In this document: positions 37,729-64,000 of the stretch, piece after piece
Layout: every line of letters begins with the position of its first letter
Position numbering within the stretch: position 1 is the first letter of the stretch
Assembly: GCF_023617305.1 (NCBI RefSeq)
Contig: NZ_CP081485.1
Coordinates: forward strand, 672,501 to 736,500
DNA length: 64,000 bases
Reading direction: 5' to 3'
Source: Methanobrevibacter sp. TLL-48-HuF1
Lineage (GTDB): Archaea; Methanobacteriota; Methanobacteria; Methanobacteriales; Methanobacteriaceae
Made by a program: the position numbers and the translations under genes
The notes under the pieces: model-generated
What the model was told of the DNA's origin: nothing
The model's database searches: none
Seen by the model: the letters and a program-made list of their open reading frames with translations, nothing else

Positions 37729-37959
37729 TTATTCTACTATGATGTTTTTAGCTTCTTCTTTACGAAGACAAACATCATATCCTTTAATTTTGAATTCAAT
37801 AGGATCGCCTAAAGGTGCAACTTTTTGGATTTTAATTTTTGAACCTCTAACGAATCCCATACCTAATAAATGTCTTTTTAAATCAGTGTTTCCACCATCA
37901 TTATATTTTACAATAGTTACTTCGTCACCAGCGTTCACATCTAATAAAGATTTTACCAT
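37729..37959 (-). CDS. feoA: Ferrous iron transport protein A
   Basis: This 76-residue SH3-like protein (VNAGDEVTIVKYN, HLLGMGFVRGSKIKIQ, APLGDPIEFKIKGYDVCLRKEEA) is a standard FeoA. It is proposed to modulate the FeoB G-domain in the cytoplasm. GGAGTTGAT precedes the ATG. It has its own promoter with metal boxes, so it is not simply a second gene of the feoB transcript. Confidence 0.92.
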   Translation of the reverse strand: MVKSLLDVNAGDEVTIVKYNDGGNTDLKRHLLGMGFVRGSKIKIQKVAPLGDPIEFKIKGYDVCLRKEEAKNIIVE

Positions 37960-37990: not shown

Positions 37991-38086
37991 TTAGGCTTAC
38001 CTAAAATAAAGTTTTTTAGTTATACCTAATTAAAATCTAATCTAATATTTAGAAAAAATAGTATATAAATATTTAGGTAATCCAAA
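37991..38086 (-). promoter_or_regulatory. feoA promoter with three DtxR-type boxes
   Basis: Boxes lie at 37991-38004 (TTAGGCTTACCTAA), 38016-38029 (TTAGTTATACCTAA) and 38073-38086 (TTAGGTAATCCAAA on the + strand). A minus-strand TTTATATA box is at 38062-38069. The upstream box begins 17 bp before the TATA box and the nearer downstream box 40 bp after it, so operators flank the promoter. This fits repression by an iron-loaded DtxR/IdeR-family protein. Confidence 0.7.
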
Positions 38087-38187: not shown

Positions 38188-40203
38188 CTAAGCAAAACCC
38201 AGTAACAAACCGCCTTGATATATTATAAGTGCTACAATATAACCGGTTGCTAATGTGATAACAGACATAGTTAACGGCCATTTCCAACTGTTGGTTTCCT
38301 GTTTGATTGTACCGATAGCCGCGAAACAAGGAACATACAGCAGTACAAATGCCATAAATGCATATGCTGAAAGCGGAGTGAACAATTGATGAACAGCTGC
38401 ATCAATACCCGAACCCTCTTCTTCTACACCGAACAGTGAACTGAATGTAGATACAACAACCTCCTTAGCAACTAAACCAAATAAGATTGCTACAGCTGGT
38501 TGCCATTCTCCGAAACCAAGAGGAGCGAAAATTGGTGCTATTGCAGTACCTATTTGACCAATTGCACTTTCCTGAGATCCGTATTCAACACCAAATGGTA
38601 CACTACTTAAAACCCATACAATAATGGATGCTGCAAGAATAATAGTTCCTGCTTTTCTAAGGAATCCTTTAGTTTTATCCCATGTATGTAATAATACACC
38701 TTTTAAGGATGGGACTTTATATGTTGGAAGTTCCATAACAAATGGGGAAGACATTCCTTTAAACATAGTTCTTTTAAGAATAGCTGCAACAATAAGTGCA
38801 ACAACGATTCCCAATAAATAAATTGAGAATAATACCTGACCCTGATTTGCAGCGAAAAATGCTGAAATTAATAATGCATATACCGGTAATCTTGCAGTAC
38901 ATGACATGAATGGAACAAGCATCATGGAAAGTAAACGATCAGATTCGTTTTCCATTGTTCTGGTAGCCATAATTGCTGGAACACCACAACCAAATCCTAA
39001 AATCATAGGAATAAAAGATTTACCATGAAGACCAACTAATTTATGCATAACTCTATCCATAACAAAAGCAGCTCTAGCTAAGTAACCGCTGTCTTCTAGA
39101 ATACTTATGAATAAAAACATAATGATAATAATTGGTAAAAAGGTTAATACTCCACCTACTCCTCCAATAATACCGTCAACAATAAAAGATGAAAGTACTG
39201 AATCACCTAATACTCCGCCAATTGCTTCACCTAATAAACCAAAACCTTCATCAATCAGATCTTGGAAAGGCGCTCCAATTGTAAAAGTAAGCTGGAACAT
39301 AATATACATAATAACTAAAAATATAGGAATTCCTAAAATTCTGTTAGTTAAATATTTATCAATCTTATCAGATACTGTTGGTTTTTCCACAGCAGGTTTA
39401 CTTACTGCTTCATTCATAAGTCCATCAATAAATGCATATCTCGCATTAGCTATTACTTCTTCTGCACTTTCATTATAAATATCTGCTAAGTGTGCAGCTA
39501 CTTTATCAGTTTCTCTCAATATTTGAGAAGCATTTTTAGATTTTTGAACTTTTTCTATTACAATAGCATCCTTTTCCAATAATTTTATTGCTGTCCACAT
39601 TGCTGGAACGTCAGTTAAATTACTATCTTTTTCAATTAATGATTGAAGATCTCCTAAATGTTCTTTTAATTCAGGGCCATAAACCAATTTTTGAGTGGTA
39701 TCAATATGTTTATTAGCTACTTTTTTAACTGTAGACAATAACTCATCAAAACCATCTTTATTTTTAGCATTAATTTCAACAACAGGGAAACCTAATAACT
39801 CAGCCATTAATTTAATATCAATAATATGTTCTTTTTTCTTTGCAAAATCATTCATATTAAGAGCCATTACTAAGTTTGCACCTAATTCCATCATTTGAAC
39901 AGTCAGATACAAATTACGTTCTAAATTAGCAGCATCTACCACATTAACAATCACATCAGAATCATCATCTACAATGAAATCCCTTGAAACGATTTCTTCA
40001 ATAGAATGAGCACTTAATGCATAATTACCAGGTAAATCAACAACATCAAAGCGAGTAGCATCATAATCAAAATGACCTTCTGCCCTTTCAACAGTTTTAC
40101 CAGGCCAGTTACCTACATGCTGATGCATACCTGTTAATTGATTGAATACTGTAGTTTTACCCACATTCGGGTTTCCTGCTAATCCTACAATACATTCTTT
40201 CAT
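38188..40203 (-). CDS. feoB: Ferrous iron transporter FeoB
   Basis: This 671-residue protein starts with a G-domain: [16 protein letters not shown] (G1), [15 protein letters not shown] (G3) and [10 protein letters not shown] (G4, NxxD). A helical GDI-like linker follows, then a membrane part of about eight segments with the two gate regions ([15 protein letters not shown] and [16 protein letters not shown]). It imports Fe2+ across the cytoplasmic membrane. TAGGAGAATGG precedes the ATG. The length is normal. Confidence 0.95.
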
Positions 40204-40280: not shown

Positions 40281-40411
40281 TTAGGCATACCTAAATTTAA
40301 GTTTAAAAATTTATTATAATTTATCAAATATTTGCAACTTAAAAATAAGGCTTGCCTAAACCTACACTTAACTTTTGTTTTAATGCTATTTAAATGTTTA
40401 GGTAAGCCAAA
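40281..40411 (-). promoter_or_regulatory. feoB upstream DtxR-type boxes
   Basis: Boxes lie at 40281-40294 (TTAGGCATACCTAA, inside a longer AAATTTAGG..CCTAAATTT palindrome), 40346-40359 (TAAGGCTTGCCTAA) and 40398-40411 (TTAGGTAAGCCAAA). AT-rich TATA-like sequence for the minus strand lies between the first two (about 40308-40330). The first two therefore flank the probable feoB promoter. Confidence 0.65.
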
Positions 40412-40431
40412 AATATCGAAGAATTTATATA
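40398..40431 (+). promoter_or_regulatory. Orphan + strand promoter head of the iron-box array
   Basis: Box 40398-40411 is followed after 26 bp (start to start) by TTTATATACTAT (TATA box 40424-40431). These are the same elements that head the four downstream units. There is no box at the usual +42 position; the next box (40480) is 56 bp on. The transcript body is missing, because unit 1 begins here. It may be a degenerate or truncated fifth unit. Confidence 0.4.
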
Positions 40432-40479
40432 CTATCCAATAACAATAGTTATATTAATTATTAAAAGTAAGTAAAAAGT

Positions 40480-40807
40480 TTAGGCGTACCTAAAAAAATA
40501 GGAAGCTTTATATACCACAACAACTAACCTAATACATAGTGGTGTAAAATTAGGCACACCTAAATTAATAGGATCCCTAAATTACAACTACTTAAAAAAA
40601 CACATTATTAGTCAAATAATAAAACTCCAAAATTATATTATATTAAATTGGTTTTCACAATTTTCTAATTTAATATAAAAAAACATGGAAACAACACTGC
40701 CAAGTTTCCATGGCAAAAAAACACAGGGTGTTTAAAAAAACATGAATTCTTAGATTTAAACACCAATTATCTCTTTTTAAAAAACAATTAAATTTTATCT
40801 GAAAATT
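40480..40807 (+). ncRNA. Iron-box unit 1: promoter plus candidate structured small RNA
   Basis: Box TTAGGCGTACCTAA (40480-40493), TTTATATA (40507-40514) and box TTAGGCACACCTAA (40550-40563) form the promoter. Transcription should begin near 40535. The body has three hairpins: a 12-bp AT stem (40638-40649 with 40667-40678), CATGGAAAC/GTTTCCATG (40684-40692 with 40704-40712) and GGTGTTTAAA/TTTAAACACC (40727-40736 with 40755-40764). A CTCTTTTT tract at 40771-40778 follows. The RNA would be about 240 nt. The only ORF, 16 codons at the second hairpin, has no ribosome binding site. Confidence 0.55.
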
Positions 40808-41133
40808 TTAGGTATACCTAAAAAAATAGGAAGCTTTATATACCACAACAACTAACCTAATACATAGTGGTGTAAAATTAGGCACACCTAAACTTATAGG
40901 ATCCCTAAATTACAACTACTTAAAAAAACACATTATTAGTCAAATAATAAAACTCCAAAATTATATTATATTAAATTGGTTTTCACAATTTTCTAATTTA
41001 ATATAAAAAACATGGAAACAACACTGCCAAGTTTCCATGGCAAAAAAACACAGGGTGTTTAAAAAACATGAATTCTTAGATTTAAACACCAATTATCTCT
41101 TTTTAAAAAACAATTAATTTTTATCTGAAAATT
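40808..41133 (+). ncRNA. Iron-box unit 2: near-identical copy of unit 1
   Basis: Boxes at 40808-40821 (TTAGGTATACCTAA) and 40878-40891 (TTAGGCACACCTAA) flank TTTATATA at 40835-40842, with the same 27- and 43-bp spacings as unit 1. The body has the same three hairpins (first stem 40966-40977 with 40995-41006) and ends at a T tract at about 41097-41104. By eye only about eight differences separate it from unit 1 over 326 bp, mostly in A-run length and the box centre, which points to a recent tandem duplication. Confidence 0.55.
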
Positions 41134-41432
41134 TTAGGCATGCCTAAAAAAATGAAAACCTTTATATACTATCACGAACTACAGTATAAATGGTGATTGA
41201 AATTAGGCATGCCTAAATTTATTGGGATCTTAATTTAAAATTACCTATATCAGTCAAAATAAAATGAATATGGTCTCCAAATAGATATTAAATTAAAACA
41301 ATCCACTCCCTAATTTAATATTTTACCTCCATATTATTTTCCTCAAATTAGGTGTTTAAAATCGGACAAACATCAATTTAAACACCTACTTCTCTCTTTT
41401 TAAAAAATTAATTTTATTTTTATATATGAATT
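41134..41432 (+). ncRNA. Iron-box unit 3: diverged copy with conserved structure
   Basis: Boxes TTAGGCATGCCTAA (41134-41147 and 41203-41216) flank TTTATATA (41161-41168). The primary sequence differs from units 1-2, but the structure is kept. An 11-bp ATATTAAATTA/TAATTTAATAT stem (41285-41295 with 41311-41321) is enclosed by AATATGG/CCATATT. A 12-bp TAGGTGTTTAAA/TTTAAACACCTA stem (41349-41360 with 41377-41388) precedes CTCTCTTTTT. Compensated changes in stems suggest a folded RNA is under selection. Size is about 210 nt. Confidence 0.5.
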
Positions 41433-41738
41433 TTTGGTAAACCTAAAAAAATAAAAACATTTATATACTATCATGAACTACAGTATAACTGGTGATGAAA
41501 ATTAGGTATACCTAAAAATATCTAATTTGAAATTACTAATGTGTTGTTGGTTTAAAACCATATTACTACACTCCGATTGTTATTAAATTAGTTTATACTC
41601 TCTTTCTCTAATTTAATAAAAAGCATATAACTACTCTCACGAAATTAAATATGTATTATCATATTTAATTTCACCTATCAAATAAAATATTTATTTTTAA
41701 GATTAAACAGAATAATCAAAGTATATGGAGATGATCTT
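41433..41738 (+). ncRNA. Iron-box unit 4: structured leader of a small Cys-rich gene
   Basis: Boxes TTTGGTAAACCTAA (41433-41446) and TTAGGTATACCTAA (41502-41515) flank TTTATATA (41460-41467). The body has TGGTTT-A-AAACCA (41548-41560), TTATTAAATTAG/CTAATTTAATAA (41580-41591 with 41608-41619) and a perfect 13-bp hairpin (41641-41653 with 41660-41672). No clear T tract follows, and the transcript could read on into the ribosome binding site and small gene at 41739. It could be a leader or a separate RNA. Confidence 0.45.
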
Positions 41739-41852
41739 ATGGGTGTAAGACCAAGTTGTTGCGAAGCACCAAAAGAAGAAACAAGCAAAGTAAAAAAGAA
41801 TATTAAAAAAGTATTTAATTTCTTCTTCGGATGCTGCAAAAATAAAAAATAA
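41739..41852 (+). CDS. 37-residue Cys-Cys peptide behind an iron-box promoter
   Basis: ATG 41739 is preceded by GGAGATGATC (41727-41736), an almost perfect match to the archaeal anti-Shine-Dalgarno. The peptide has a CC pair near each end (RPSCCEAP and FFGCCKNKK). Between them is a lysine-rich helix with an amphipathic VFNFFF stretch. Four cysteines in two adjacent pairs could bind metal or be lipidated or disulfide-linked. I recognise no family. Its place after iron-box unit 4 suggests expression under iron limitation. Confidence 0.65.
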   Translation: MGVRPSCCEAPKEETSKVKKNIKKVFNFFFGCCKNKK

Positions 41853-61029: not shown

Positions 61030-64000
61030 GCTGAAATTGTTATTTTATTTGATGCCCAGCAGTTATCATACGTTGATGTTATGATATATTCACCAGCCAT
61101 TAATCTGATGTTTAAGCTAGCTACACCATTAGCATTGGTTGTTTTATGATAGAAAACACCGTTTACATTAAAGGTTATGTTTGCACCAGCTAAAGCTTTA
61201 CCTTGACCATCAACAAGAGTAGCATTAAATGTGCTGCCGTCAAGATACTTCATGGAGAGATCTTGTGCAGTTAATCTTGGTAAAACAGTTATGTTGTTAG
61301 CTCTTTCTTCACCGGTTGCCGGGTTGTAAGCTGTTATAACATATGATTTTGGATCTAATCTGATGCCTAAACTAGCTGTACCGTTTTCATCAGTTACGCG
61401 AGTGTAGAACACACCATTAATGTTGAATTTTACAGTTGTGTTTGCTAATGCTTTTCCGTTACTGTCTAAGAATTTAGCTACATATTTTGTTCCGTTACAG
61501 AAGTATAATGTAGTGTCATTTCCTAATACAGTGTTTTTAACTGTTACTGTTGCATTAGCTGTTGCTTTATCATAATCTTTGGTTCCGTTAAATACAGCAT
61601 TTACTTTGTATTCGTTAGGAACTAATCCGATACCCATGGAAGCTGTACCGTTTTTATCAGTTGTTTTAGCATAAACTTTGCCGTTTACTGTGAAGTAAAC
61701 AGTTGCGTTAGCTATTGGGTTTCCAAATGCGTCAACAAGTTTAGCTGTGAGATTTTGAGAACCGCTGAAGTATTTTACAACATCCTCCATTGTTAAGGTG
61801 GTTTTAGTGTTTTTATTAACTGTTATTGTTCCGTTAACTATCATGGAGTCGTATTTAGCATCTCCTGTGTAGAAGGTTACTACTTTGTAGGTTCCTTCAT
61901 CTAAACCAGGAATAATAACTTTAGCAGTGCCGTTAGTGACTGTTCCTTTGTAATCTGTACCGTTTATTGTTACAACTACACTACCGATTCCGTCTTTAGG
62001 AACAGTAACAGTAATTGTAGCATTTTCACCTTTAATAATATCTGCAATATCAACAGTCATATTATAATCAGACACTTTAGAAACAGTAAATTTAGTAGAA
62101 TTCTCCATAGGCATGTATGTATCATCACCATTGTAGAATACACTTACACTGTAAGTTCCATTAGCTAAATTAGGGACAGTTACACTAGCTACACCATATT
62201 TAACTATAGCAGTGTAATTTTTACCATTAACGTTTACAGTTACATTTCCAGTAGCATCTTCAGGCAATGCAACACTAATTACAGCATCATCACCTACTTT
62301 AATGTCTTTAACATCAACATCCATAGATGAAATAACTAATTTGGAAACAGCAAATGTTGCATTAGCTTGGCTAGCTAAGTATTTATCATTGCCATTAAAT
62401 TTAGCAACAACATCATAAGAACCAGCAGCTAAATTATAAACAGTTAAAGTACCTTTACCGTCAACAATAGCAACATTATAAATTGCATTACCGACAGTAA
62501 CAGTAGCTACACCAGAAGTTATTTCAGGAACAGCAATACCAATAACTGCATTTTCACCAACTTTAATGTCATCCACACTAACAGCAGTAGTGGAAGCTAA
62601 TTTAGATACACTAAATGTAGCATTAGCCATACTAGCTAAATACATATCAGTTTCAGCAAACTTAGCAACAACATCATAAGAACCACTAGCTAAACCAGAA
62701 ACAGTTAAATATCCTTTACCATCAACAACAGCAACAGTGTAAGATTTACCACCAACAGTAACAGTAACTACTCCTAAATCAACATTAGGAACAGCAATAC
62801 CAATAACAGCATCATCACCAGCATTAATATCACTAACAGTGACAACAGTTGCAGAAGCTAATTTAGATACACTAAATGTAGCATTAGCTTGGCTAGCTAA
62901 ATACATATCAGTTTCAGCAAACTTAGCAACAACATCATAAGAACCACTAGCTAAACCAGAAACAGTTAAAATACCTTTACCATCAACAACAGCAACACTA
63001 TAAATTGCATCACCAACAGTAACACTAACTACACCAGAAGCAATACCCGGAACAGCTATGTTAATAACTGCATTTTCACCAACTTTAATGTCATCCACAC
63101 TAACATCAACTGCAGAAGCTAATTTAGATACACTAAATGTAGCATTAGCCATACTAGCTAAATACACATCAGTTTCAGCAAACTTAGCAACAACATCATA
63201 AGAACCACTAGCTAAACCAGAAACAGTTAAAGATCCTTTACCATCAACAACAGCAACACTATAAATTGCATCACCAACAGTAACACTAACTACTCCTAAA
63301 TCAACATTAGGAACAGCAATACCAATAACAGCATCATCACCAACTTTAATGTCTTTAACATCAACATCCATAGATGAAATAACTAATTTGGAAACAGCAA
63401 ATGTAGCATTAGCTTGGCTAGCTAAATACATATCAGTTTCAGCAAACTTAGCAACAACATCATAAGAACCAGCAGCTAAACCAGAAACAGTTAAAGTACC
63501 TTTACCGTCAACAATAGCAACATTATAAATTGCATTACCGACAGTAACAGTAGCTACACCAGAAGTTATTTCAGGAACAGCAATACCAATAACTGCATTT
63601 TCACCAACTTTAATGTCATCCACACTAACAGCAGTAGTGGAAGCTAATTTAGATACACTAAATGTAGCATTAGCCATACTAGCTAAATACATATCAGTTT
63701 CAGCAAACTTAGCAACAACATCATAAGAACCACTAGCTAAACCAGAAACAGTTAAAGATCCTTTACCATCAACAACAGCAACAGTGTAAGATTTACCACC
63801 AACAGTAACAGTAACTACTCCTAAATCAACATTAGGAACAGCAATACCAATAACTGCATTTTCACCAACTTTAATGTCATCCACACTAACAGCAGTAGTG
63901 GAAGCTAATTTAGATACTTTAAATGTAGCATTAGCCTCACTAGCTAAATACATATCAGTTTCAGCAAACTTAGCAACAACATCATAAGAACCAGCAGCTA
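61026..64000 (-). CDS. Adhesin-like surface protein, C-terminal part (5' end outside the window)
   Basis: The frame is open to the right edge; at least 990 residues are visible. It is built of beta-sandwich (Ig-like) repeats. Seven near-identical 87-residue units end in YLAS.ANATFSVSKL. Two more diverged units follow, then three units of another type (NGTASLGIRL, ITFNVNGVFYHKTT). The protein ends SNKITISA with no sortase motif or membrane anchor, so attachment must come from the missing N-terminal part or from non-covalent binding. Methanobrevibacter adhesin-like proteins of this kind contact gut bacteria or host glycans. Confidence 0.85.
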   Translation of the reverse strand, partial: AAGSYDVVAKFAETDMYLASEANATFKVSKLASTTAVSVDDIKVGENAVIGIAVPNVDLGVVTVTVGGKSYTVAVVDGKGSLTVSGLASGSYDVVAKFAETDMYLASMANATFSVSKLASTTAVSVDDIKVGENAVIGIAVPEITSGVATVTVGNAIYNVAIVDGKGTLTVSGLAAGSYDVVAKFAETDMYLASQANATFAVSKLVISSMDVDVKDIKVGDDAVIGIAVPNVDLGVVSVTVGDAIYSVAVVDGKGSLTVSGLASGSYDVVAKFAETDVYLASMANATFSVSKLASAVDVSVDDIKVGENAVINIAVPGIASGVVSVTVGDAIYSVAVVDGKGILTVSGLASGSYDVVAKFAETDMYLASQANATFSVSKLASATVVTVSDINAGDDAVIGIAVPNVDLGVVTVTVGGKSYTVAVVDGKGYLTVSGLASGSYDVVAKFAETDMYLASMANATFSVSKLASTTAVSVDDIKVGENAVIGIAVPEITSGVATVTVGNAIYNVAIVDGKGTLTVYNLAAGSYDVVAKFNGNDKYLASQANATFAVSKLVISSMDVDVKDIKVGDDAVISVALPEDATGNVTVNVNGKNYTAIVKYGVASVTVPNLANGTYSVSVFYNGDDTYMPMENSTKFTVSKVSDYNMTVDIADIIKGENATITVTVPKDGIGSVVVTINGTDYKGTVTNGTAKVIIPGLDEGTYKVVTFYTGDAKYDSMIVNGTITVNKNTKTTLTMEDVVKYFSGSQNLTAKLVDAFGNPIANATVYFTVNGKVYAKTTDKNGTASMGIGLVPNEYKVNAVFNGTKDYDKATANATVTVKNTVLGNDTTLYFCNGTKYVAKFLDSNGKALANTTVKFNINGVFYTRVTDENGTASLGIRLDPKSYVITAYNPATGEERANNITVLPRLTAQDLSMKYLDGSTFNATLVDGQGKALAGANITFNVNGVFYHKTTNANGVASLNIRLMAGEYIITSTYDNCWASNKITISA
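62300..64000. repeat. 261-bp coding repeats with a 1.05-kb higher-order duplication
   Basis: The DNA repeats about every 261 bp. The stretch encoding SVDDIKVGENAVIGIAVP occurs at about 62530-62590, 63570-63640 and 63840-63900. Units with EITSG centres at about 62510 and 63560 are nearly identical and 1047 bp apart (four units), and their neighbours match too. This indicates a block duplication of about four units, not only single-unit copying. Confidence 0.75.

Follow-up and report, generated by a model that had tools for sequence, protein, structure and literature searches.

A candidate iron-sparing small RNA family with DtxR-type promoters in the archaeal genus Methanobrevibacter

We describe a genus-wide family of small RNAs in the archaeon Methanobrevibacter, members of which are arrayed in tandem next to feoB. 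The family is real, it is very probably iron-controlled, and it probably serves to spare iron. On balance, we read it as a DtxR-repressed archaeal iron-sparing family that is likely to resemble the bacterial IsrR and FsrA in function and not by homology. Computation establishes the family, its structure, promoter, terminator, copy number and distribution, and C-rich motifs that are predicted to be unpaired.

The array and the class A RNA family

The window, the whole stretch of 64,000 nt that was analysed, covers positions 672501-736500 of the 1.95 Mb single-contig genome of Methanobrevibacter sp. TLL-48-HuF1 (G000). Four units occupy the gap upstream of feoB and the DNA to the right of it, with starts near 40536, 40864, 41190 and 41488 (Table 1) and start-to-start distances of 328, 326 and 299 bp in a direct-repeat search. 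In every unit, a TATA box stands between two DtxR/IdeR-type palindromes, and a hairpin-rich body runs to a U tract that terminates it.

An earlier note on this DNA had proposed a four-unit box-TATA-box array here with nearly identical units 1 and 2. Both points hold, as the window has 9 exact TTAGGN4CCTAA sites vs 0.04 expected from shuffles, and the two units share 98% identity over 209 nt. Its reading of the units as one family stands for units 1-3, which are all class A although unit 3 is diverged (its ortholog at L012 1928-2080, found by the covariance model, scores 29.8 bits), and fails for unit 4, a different RNA class. Nor is the array the whole system, as this genome has a further, isolated class A copy 74 kb off, which bears the same promoter (L009 2220-2520).

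Table 1. Features of the array, with the second RNA family and the fdhA start regions (window positions unless a locus is named)
Feature	Position	Strand	Remarks
feoA	37729-37959	-	own two-box promoter near 38069; Pfam
feoB	38188-40203	-	divergent from array; Pfam FeoB domains
feoB, further boxes	40281-40294, 40346-40359
feoB promoter TTTAAATA	40387-40411	-	box TTTGGCTTACCTAA upstream
Unit 1 upstream DtxR-type box TTAGGCGTACCTAA	40480-40493	+	same position in 55/55 copies
Unit 1 TATA box	40507-40514	+
Unit 1 class A small RNA	40536-40778	+	start placed from TATA, end at U tract; 88 bits against covariance model
Unit 1 downstream DtxR-type box	40550-40563	+	about +15 of transcript, inside 5' hairpin HP0
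Unit 1 hairpins HP0; HP1; HP2; HP3; terminator	40538-40592; 40605-40622; 40638-40678; 40684-40712; 40727-40764	+
Unit 1 single-stranded seed CTCCAAA	40625-40631	+	invariant in alignment A1; predicted unpaired
Unit 2 upstream box	40808-40821	+
Unit 2 class A small RNA	40864-41104	+	92 bits
Unit 2 downstream box	40878-40891	+
Unit 2 seed; terminator hairpin	40953-40959; 41054-41090	+
Unit 3 upstream box	41134-41147	+
Unit 3 diverged class A small RNA	41190-41401	+
Unit 3 downstream box	41203-41216	+
Unit 3 seed TCTCCAAATA; terminator	41275-41281; 41349-41388	+
Unit 4 upstream box TTTGGTAAACCTAA	41433-41446	+
Unit 4 class B RNA	41488-41700	+	CTCCGATT at 41571-41578, CU-rich loops, stem 41641-41672
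Unit 4 downstream box	41502-41515	+
Small ORF, 37 aa, Cys/Lys-rich	41739-41852	+	strong Shine-Dalgarno (GGAGATGATCTTATG)
Second family, own member	L349 (G000:C1:1590400-1592500), around 480-713	-
Second family, other members	L330, L331, L342, L343, L344, L348, L354, L355 (two), L359, L367
fdhA start regions	L318, L322-L324, L326, L335, L357, L361, L363-L366, L368-L370, L372

Class A genes run in the order of box 1, TATA and box 2, the last enclosed by the 5' hairpin HP0. After HP1 comes a single-stranded CAAUCUCCAAAAU in most copies, with an invariant core CUCCAAA and the form AAACUCCAAAAUU in units 1 and 2. HP2 bears a near-invariant CACAAUUUU loop (e.g. window 40656-40664) and HP3 a UCUGCC loop. 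HP4, GGUGUUUA..UAAACACC, often has an CUCUCCUCC loop and is followed by UCUCUUUUU; other species have a C-rich loop in the terminator that units 1 and 2 lack. A U tract follows the terminator hairpin in nearly all of 55 copies, and several similar C-rich loop motifs occur per RNA (CUCCAAAA, UGCCAAAA and CUCCUCC).

The fold is conserved at the level of base pairs. Over 57 distinct sequences, pairing is maintained in 95.8% of pair cells, and both-sided changes occur in 19/33 pairs, vs 7.8 in shuffles and at most 6 in slid controls; this alignment was fitted to the model, and a MAFFT alignment also gives 9 pairs vs 4.3. One-sided HP2 changes are from A-U to G-U or from U-A to U-G and therefore fit the plus strand only. 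Against shuffles, the fold z is -5.4 for unit 1, -4.7 for unit 3, -5.9 for unit 4 and -7.3 for the remote copy. The C-rich cores have a predicted mean unpaired probability of 0.94-0.98, and the seed 0.94 over 49 copies.

A protein-coding gene was considered and rejected, since the longest ORF has a median of 12 aa and no ORF is conserved. Class A is thus a non-coding RNA with conserved secondary structure. The proposal of the earlier note that the units encode small RNAs is strongly supported by the genus-wide presence, the compensatory changes, the fixed promoter and terminator and the lack of a conserved ORF.

BLASTN with unit 2 finds relatives in 62/67 genomes of the genus. The search with a covariance model that the earlier note had suggested was done with R1, built from an alignment of 31 class A copies, and it likewise matches 62/67 Methanobrevibacter genomes, among them 36/37 of the high-quality ones, commonly with 2-5 copies per genome. 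Outside the genus, R1 matches none of 72 genomes, which represent 16 other genera in the same family, and an exact-pattern scan of ~85,000 named species genomes returns 24 stretches, every one titled Methanobrevibacter. Four of the five genus genomes without an R1 match are only 66-83% complete, and the fifth (G029, 95%) may truly be without class A RNA. Rfam gives no match at E<=1 over the array of the window, and none over the L009, L012 and second-family loci.

In relatives, class A genes are found divergent from feoB, ~9 kb from feoB beside a class B unit, beside rubrerythrin, beside gatD/gatE and beside a glutathione-peroxidase/thioredoxin-reductase pair (names read from sequences). The presence at feoB elsewhere answers the earlier note, which had named absence of the structure at feoB in all related genomes as telling against its proposal. 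Three copies in a row stand beside rubrerythrin in both G016 and G004, and therefore tandem arrays recur in several species. The repeated conserved contexts (feoB, rubrerythrin and gatDE) argue against class A as a mobile, MITE-like element. A cis-acting riboswitch or leader would always share a transcript with one gene class and stand upstream of it, but the neighbours of class A are many different genes, often convergent or divergent, and the RNA has its own terminator.

In L009 (1496-2089), degraded collagen-like repeats and a DNA methyltransferase-like gene lie beside the remote copy, and G058 has a copy between collagen-like and restriction-system-like genes (L106). At 62336-64000 of the window, a 261-bp tandem repeat of 6.4 copies probably encodes part of an adhesin-like repeat protein whose gene runs past the end of the window.

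Predicted targets and the proposed mechanism

In the mechanism that we propose, each unit would stand alone as a gene and yield a non-coding RNA of ~210-245 nt. When loaded with Fe(II), a DtxR/IdeR-type repressor would bind both palindromes bracketing the TATA box and block transcription; when iron runs short, it would leave the units and, with them, feoA and feoB. The class A RNA would end at an intrinsic terminator, the hairpin GGTGTTTA..TAAACACC with its U tract, and would expose C-rich stretches, chiefly the seed and then the UCUGCC and CUCUCCUCC loops. These would pair with the ribosome-binding sites (RBSs) of mRNAs for iron-rich proteins, so that less is translated and iron is spared. 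Extra copies would add to the amount of RNA and bring variation to the seed flanks. The best-supported targets would be fwdF, for the formylmethanofuran dehydrogenase polyferredoxin, and fdhA, for formate dehydrogenase.

We infer the pairing in vivo and its effect on translation from complementarity at RBSs. The seed complement AATTTTGGAGATTG, searched in six genomes, lies at the RBS of fwdF in 6/6, hypC in 2, fdhA in 1 and a biotin-ligase-like gene in 1. A 305-aa RBS match in G007 and G063 was rejected as an iron gene, as it looks like a biotin ligase from its sequence. A gapped RBS pattern over 15 genomes has two recurrent genes, fwdF and fdhA. The complement TTTTGGAGATT is at the fwdF RBS in 46/46 sequences from RNA-bearing genomes (45 exact and one with a single mismatch), and at the fdhA RBS in 13/15 genomes scanned plus one more, where the upstream flanks vary freely.

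The fwdF product is a polyferredoxin with 8 x [4Fe-4S] (NCBIfam FwdF, cluster motifs counted). However, its site also encodes the C-terminus of the upstream gene's product (..IKILEI stop), occurs in relatives without class A RNA and is older than that RNA, and we therefore reject its conservation as a sign of co-evolution.

Target rankings, all resting on genome samples of ~400 kb, are mixed. Fe-S genes of the own genome sample, G000, pair better with the seed (p = 0.0025), but flank-shuffled seeds that keep CUCC separate them almost as well (p = 0.15), so we discount this enrichment as mostly Shine-Dalgarno strength. The best four of 428 genes in G007 are those for ferredoxin, fwdF, fdhA and hypC. 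Its top ten hold 3 Fe proteins vs 0.44 for flank-shuffled seeds (0 of 150 shuffles), a figure that omits the regions holding fwdF, fdhA and hypC, which had been chosen knowingly. Replication at fixed spacing in G003 with a motif-defined Fe set is not significant (p = 0.17, and 0.6 without fdhA); HdrB-like and Ehb-like genes in its top list were noticed after the fact and not counted. Hence, targeting of iron-protein RBSs by the class A seed is plausible and specific in part. The complementarity to fwdF, fdhA, hypC and ferredoxin supports the suggested iron-sparing role, with mixed statistics.

A second, unrelated RNA family has 12 members in 11 genomes, the own genome included (G000:C1:1590964). 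It has a TATA promoter without DtxR boxes, an invariant CATTTTATAATCTCCAAAA and a terminator hairpin GGAAGTAG..CTACTTCC followed by a C-rich, T-rich stretch, and no Rfam match at the loci searched. Its members were found by CATTTTATAATCTCCAAAA itself, so the 19-nt identity was selected for; independent evidence comes from the promoter, 5' region and terminator shared around it. CATTTTATAATCTCCAAAA complements the RBS, start codon and second codon of fdhA over 20-25 nt, a better match than that of the class A seed. The 20-nt start region of fdhA, ATTTTGGAGATTATAAAATG, is near-invariant among variable upstream flanks, the own genome having TATTTGGAGATTATAAAATG. A 12-nt part, AATCTCCAAAAT, is common to the second family and most class A RNAs, which suggests convergence of both families on fdhA.

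Alternatively, the iron-regulated RNAs could act by binding a protein, as sponge or scaffold, with the C-rich loops and the HP2 loop as protein sites. The similar C-rich loops repeated within each class A RNA would suit this, as would target statistics that are not significant in 2/3 genomes. The near-invariant HP2 loop would suit it too: across six genomes, no perfect complement of CACAAUUUU was found elsewhere, apart from a place at G003:C1:676764, and the exact complements are, where this could be told, antisense to class A RNAs themselves. This part of the RNA is therefore unexplained by pairing with mRNA, and may be a protein site or an RNA-RNA contact. Nevertheless, the seed flanks in G007, beyond CUCC, match iron-protein RBSs better than shuffled controls do, and the unrelated second family carries the same 12 nt within its fdhA antisense. 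We thus consider protein binding unlikely as the main action, and prefer pairing with mRNA.

Class B, the operator boxes and their repressor

Unit 4 has the same promoter as units 1-3 and a different but conserved body. This class B body, with CTCCGATTRTTA, CU-rich loops and a stem GAAATTAAATATG..CATATTTAATTTC, recurs in other species. Behind it, a Cys/Lys-rich ORF of ~37 aa occurs in the own species and in L012, L014, L016, L023 and L067; its product in the window (..CCEAPKEE..KKVFNFFFGCC..) has no Pfam match. Unit 4 may be an RNA in its own right or else a transcript with two functions, and could serve as an mRNA leader as well.

Extended to the whole array, the leader idea takes the units as tandem promoters and leaders of this ORF, for cis control of a small iron-stress protein. 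Unit 4 does run towards the ORF, and related ORFs stand behind class B in the species just named. Units 1-3, however, each end at a terminator of their own, no such ORF accompanies class A copies elsewhere, and class B occurs without it in L028, L041, L046, L057 and L060, which makes this account improbable. Separate RNA genes remain our reading of units 1-3.

In the four units, TATA boxes TTTATATA lie at 40507, 40835, 41161 and 41460, and 40424 may be the place of a fifth. Box, 12-14 nt, TATA, 33-37 nt and box are in register in 55/55 copies checked, and this register lies outside R1, which contains neither boxes nor TATA, although a BLAST query that included the boxes was the first to pick up about half of the 55 copies, the rest coming from R1 alone. 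TTAGG-type inverted repeats at promoters, as in DtxR/IdeR operators, are thus a constant of the units.

The genome encodes a complete DtxR-type protein with HTH, dimerisation and FeoA domains (L071 982-1692), and feoA, feoB and a DUF6110 gene carry the same boxes as the units. Proteomic work supports iron control through DtxR and Feo in methanogens (PMC8516115). Together, the box type, the feoA and feoB boxes and the DtxR protein make control of the units by a DtxR-type iron repressor a well-supported inference, in which this DtxR protein would be the repressor and the units would respond to iron. The DUF6110 gene, for a small protein (L010 1537-1797; G000:C1:413 kb), has two exact boxes around a TATA-like element and is therefore probably in the same iron regulon.

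The boxes are concentrated at the array. Seven of the 9 exact window boxes fall within 40480-41515 (~1 kb), those at 40281 and 37991 belong to feoB and feoA, and two near-exact boxes, at 41433-41446 and 40398-40411, make up the rest. Genome-wide there are 16 exact boxes, of which the feoB gap and array account for 8, with others at the feoA promoter, at the remote unit copy and on both sides of the DUF6110 element. Such clustering would suit a repressor sink, i.e., a feo-linked operator cluster titrating DtxR with the RNAs as by-products. A DNA sink, however, needs none of the compensatory pairs, unpaired motifs and terminators kept in 62 genomes, and solitary class A copies lie far from feo, so that we give this idea very little credence. 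Equally little is left for boxes that answer to manganese or another metal, with RNAs sparing or tuning that metal: the DtxR family includes MntR and the metal is not readable from sequence alone, but the boxes are of the TTAGG IdeR/DtxR type and stand at feoA and feoB, and the repressor has an FeoA-like C-terminal domain.

A fuller picture can be drawn only tentatively, and we hold it to be somewhat doubtful as a whole. A genus-wide, multi-copy network of DtxR-controlled small RNAs would shut the translation of formylmethanofuran and formate dehydrogenases, the entry enzymes of methanogenesis with the highest iron demand, when iron is short, class B would be a dual-function RNA encoding a small basic Cys helper protein, and the second family would have converged independently on the fdhA RBS.

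Comparison with known systems

Methanogens are unusually rich in Fe-S proteins. Iron-sparing small RNAs are known from several bacterial groups, each arisen separately. In the open-licence papers searched, we found no description of an archaeal iron-sparing small RNA or of such an array. If our reading is true, class A is the first archaeal counterpart of the bacterial iron-saving RNAs, compact, genus-specific and in nearly every species. The predicted targets act at the first steps by which formate and CO2 are turned into methane, and therefore iron supply in gut and rumen would, if so, be tied to methane output by an RNA switch. Archaeal small RNA research gains two families with concrete predicted mRNA targets, one supported by covariation and the other strongly conserved.

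RyhB of E. coli and PrrF of Pseudomonas have the iron-sparing logic in common with class A, and no sequence or structural relation is expected. Both depend on Fur and Hfq, and the PrrF genes occur in tandem. Among methanogens, sRNA162 of Methanosarcina mazei acts in trans on mRNA; it belongs to another genus and is not described there as iron-controlled (PMC3510493).

FsrA of Bacillus subtilis is 84 nt long and Fur-controlled, and is accompanied by iron-regulated small basic Fbp proteins (PMC7430163). The 37-aa Lys-rich protein behind class B in some species recalls this pairing, with no sequence relation, and an Fbp-like chaperone role for it is only an analogy.

A close parallel is IsrR of Staphylococcus, an iron-repressor-controlled RNA of 174 nt with two operator boxes, three stem-loops and an intrinsic terminator, whose conserved single-stranded C-rich regions are aimed at Shine-Dalgarno sequences, which is conserved through one genus and whose targets include the formate dehydrogenase mRNA fdhA (PMC9410917). 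Class A resembles it in the two boxes, similar size, stem-loops with an intrinsic terminator, exposed C-rich regions, genus-wide presence and formate dehydrogenase among the predicted targets. IsrR, a bacterial RNA under Fur, is described as a single gene (PMC9410917), whereas class A has an archaeal TATA promoter, DtxR-type boxes, several copies with tandem arrays and a different sequence, one that matches no Rfam family at the loci searched.
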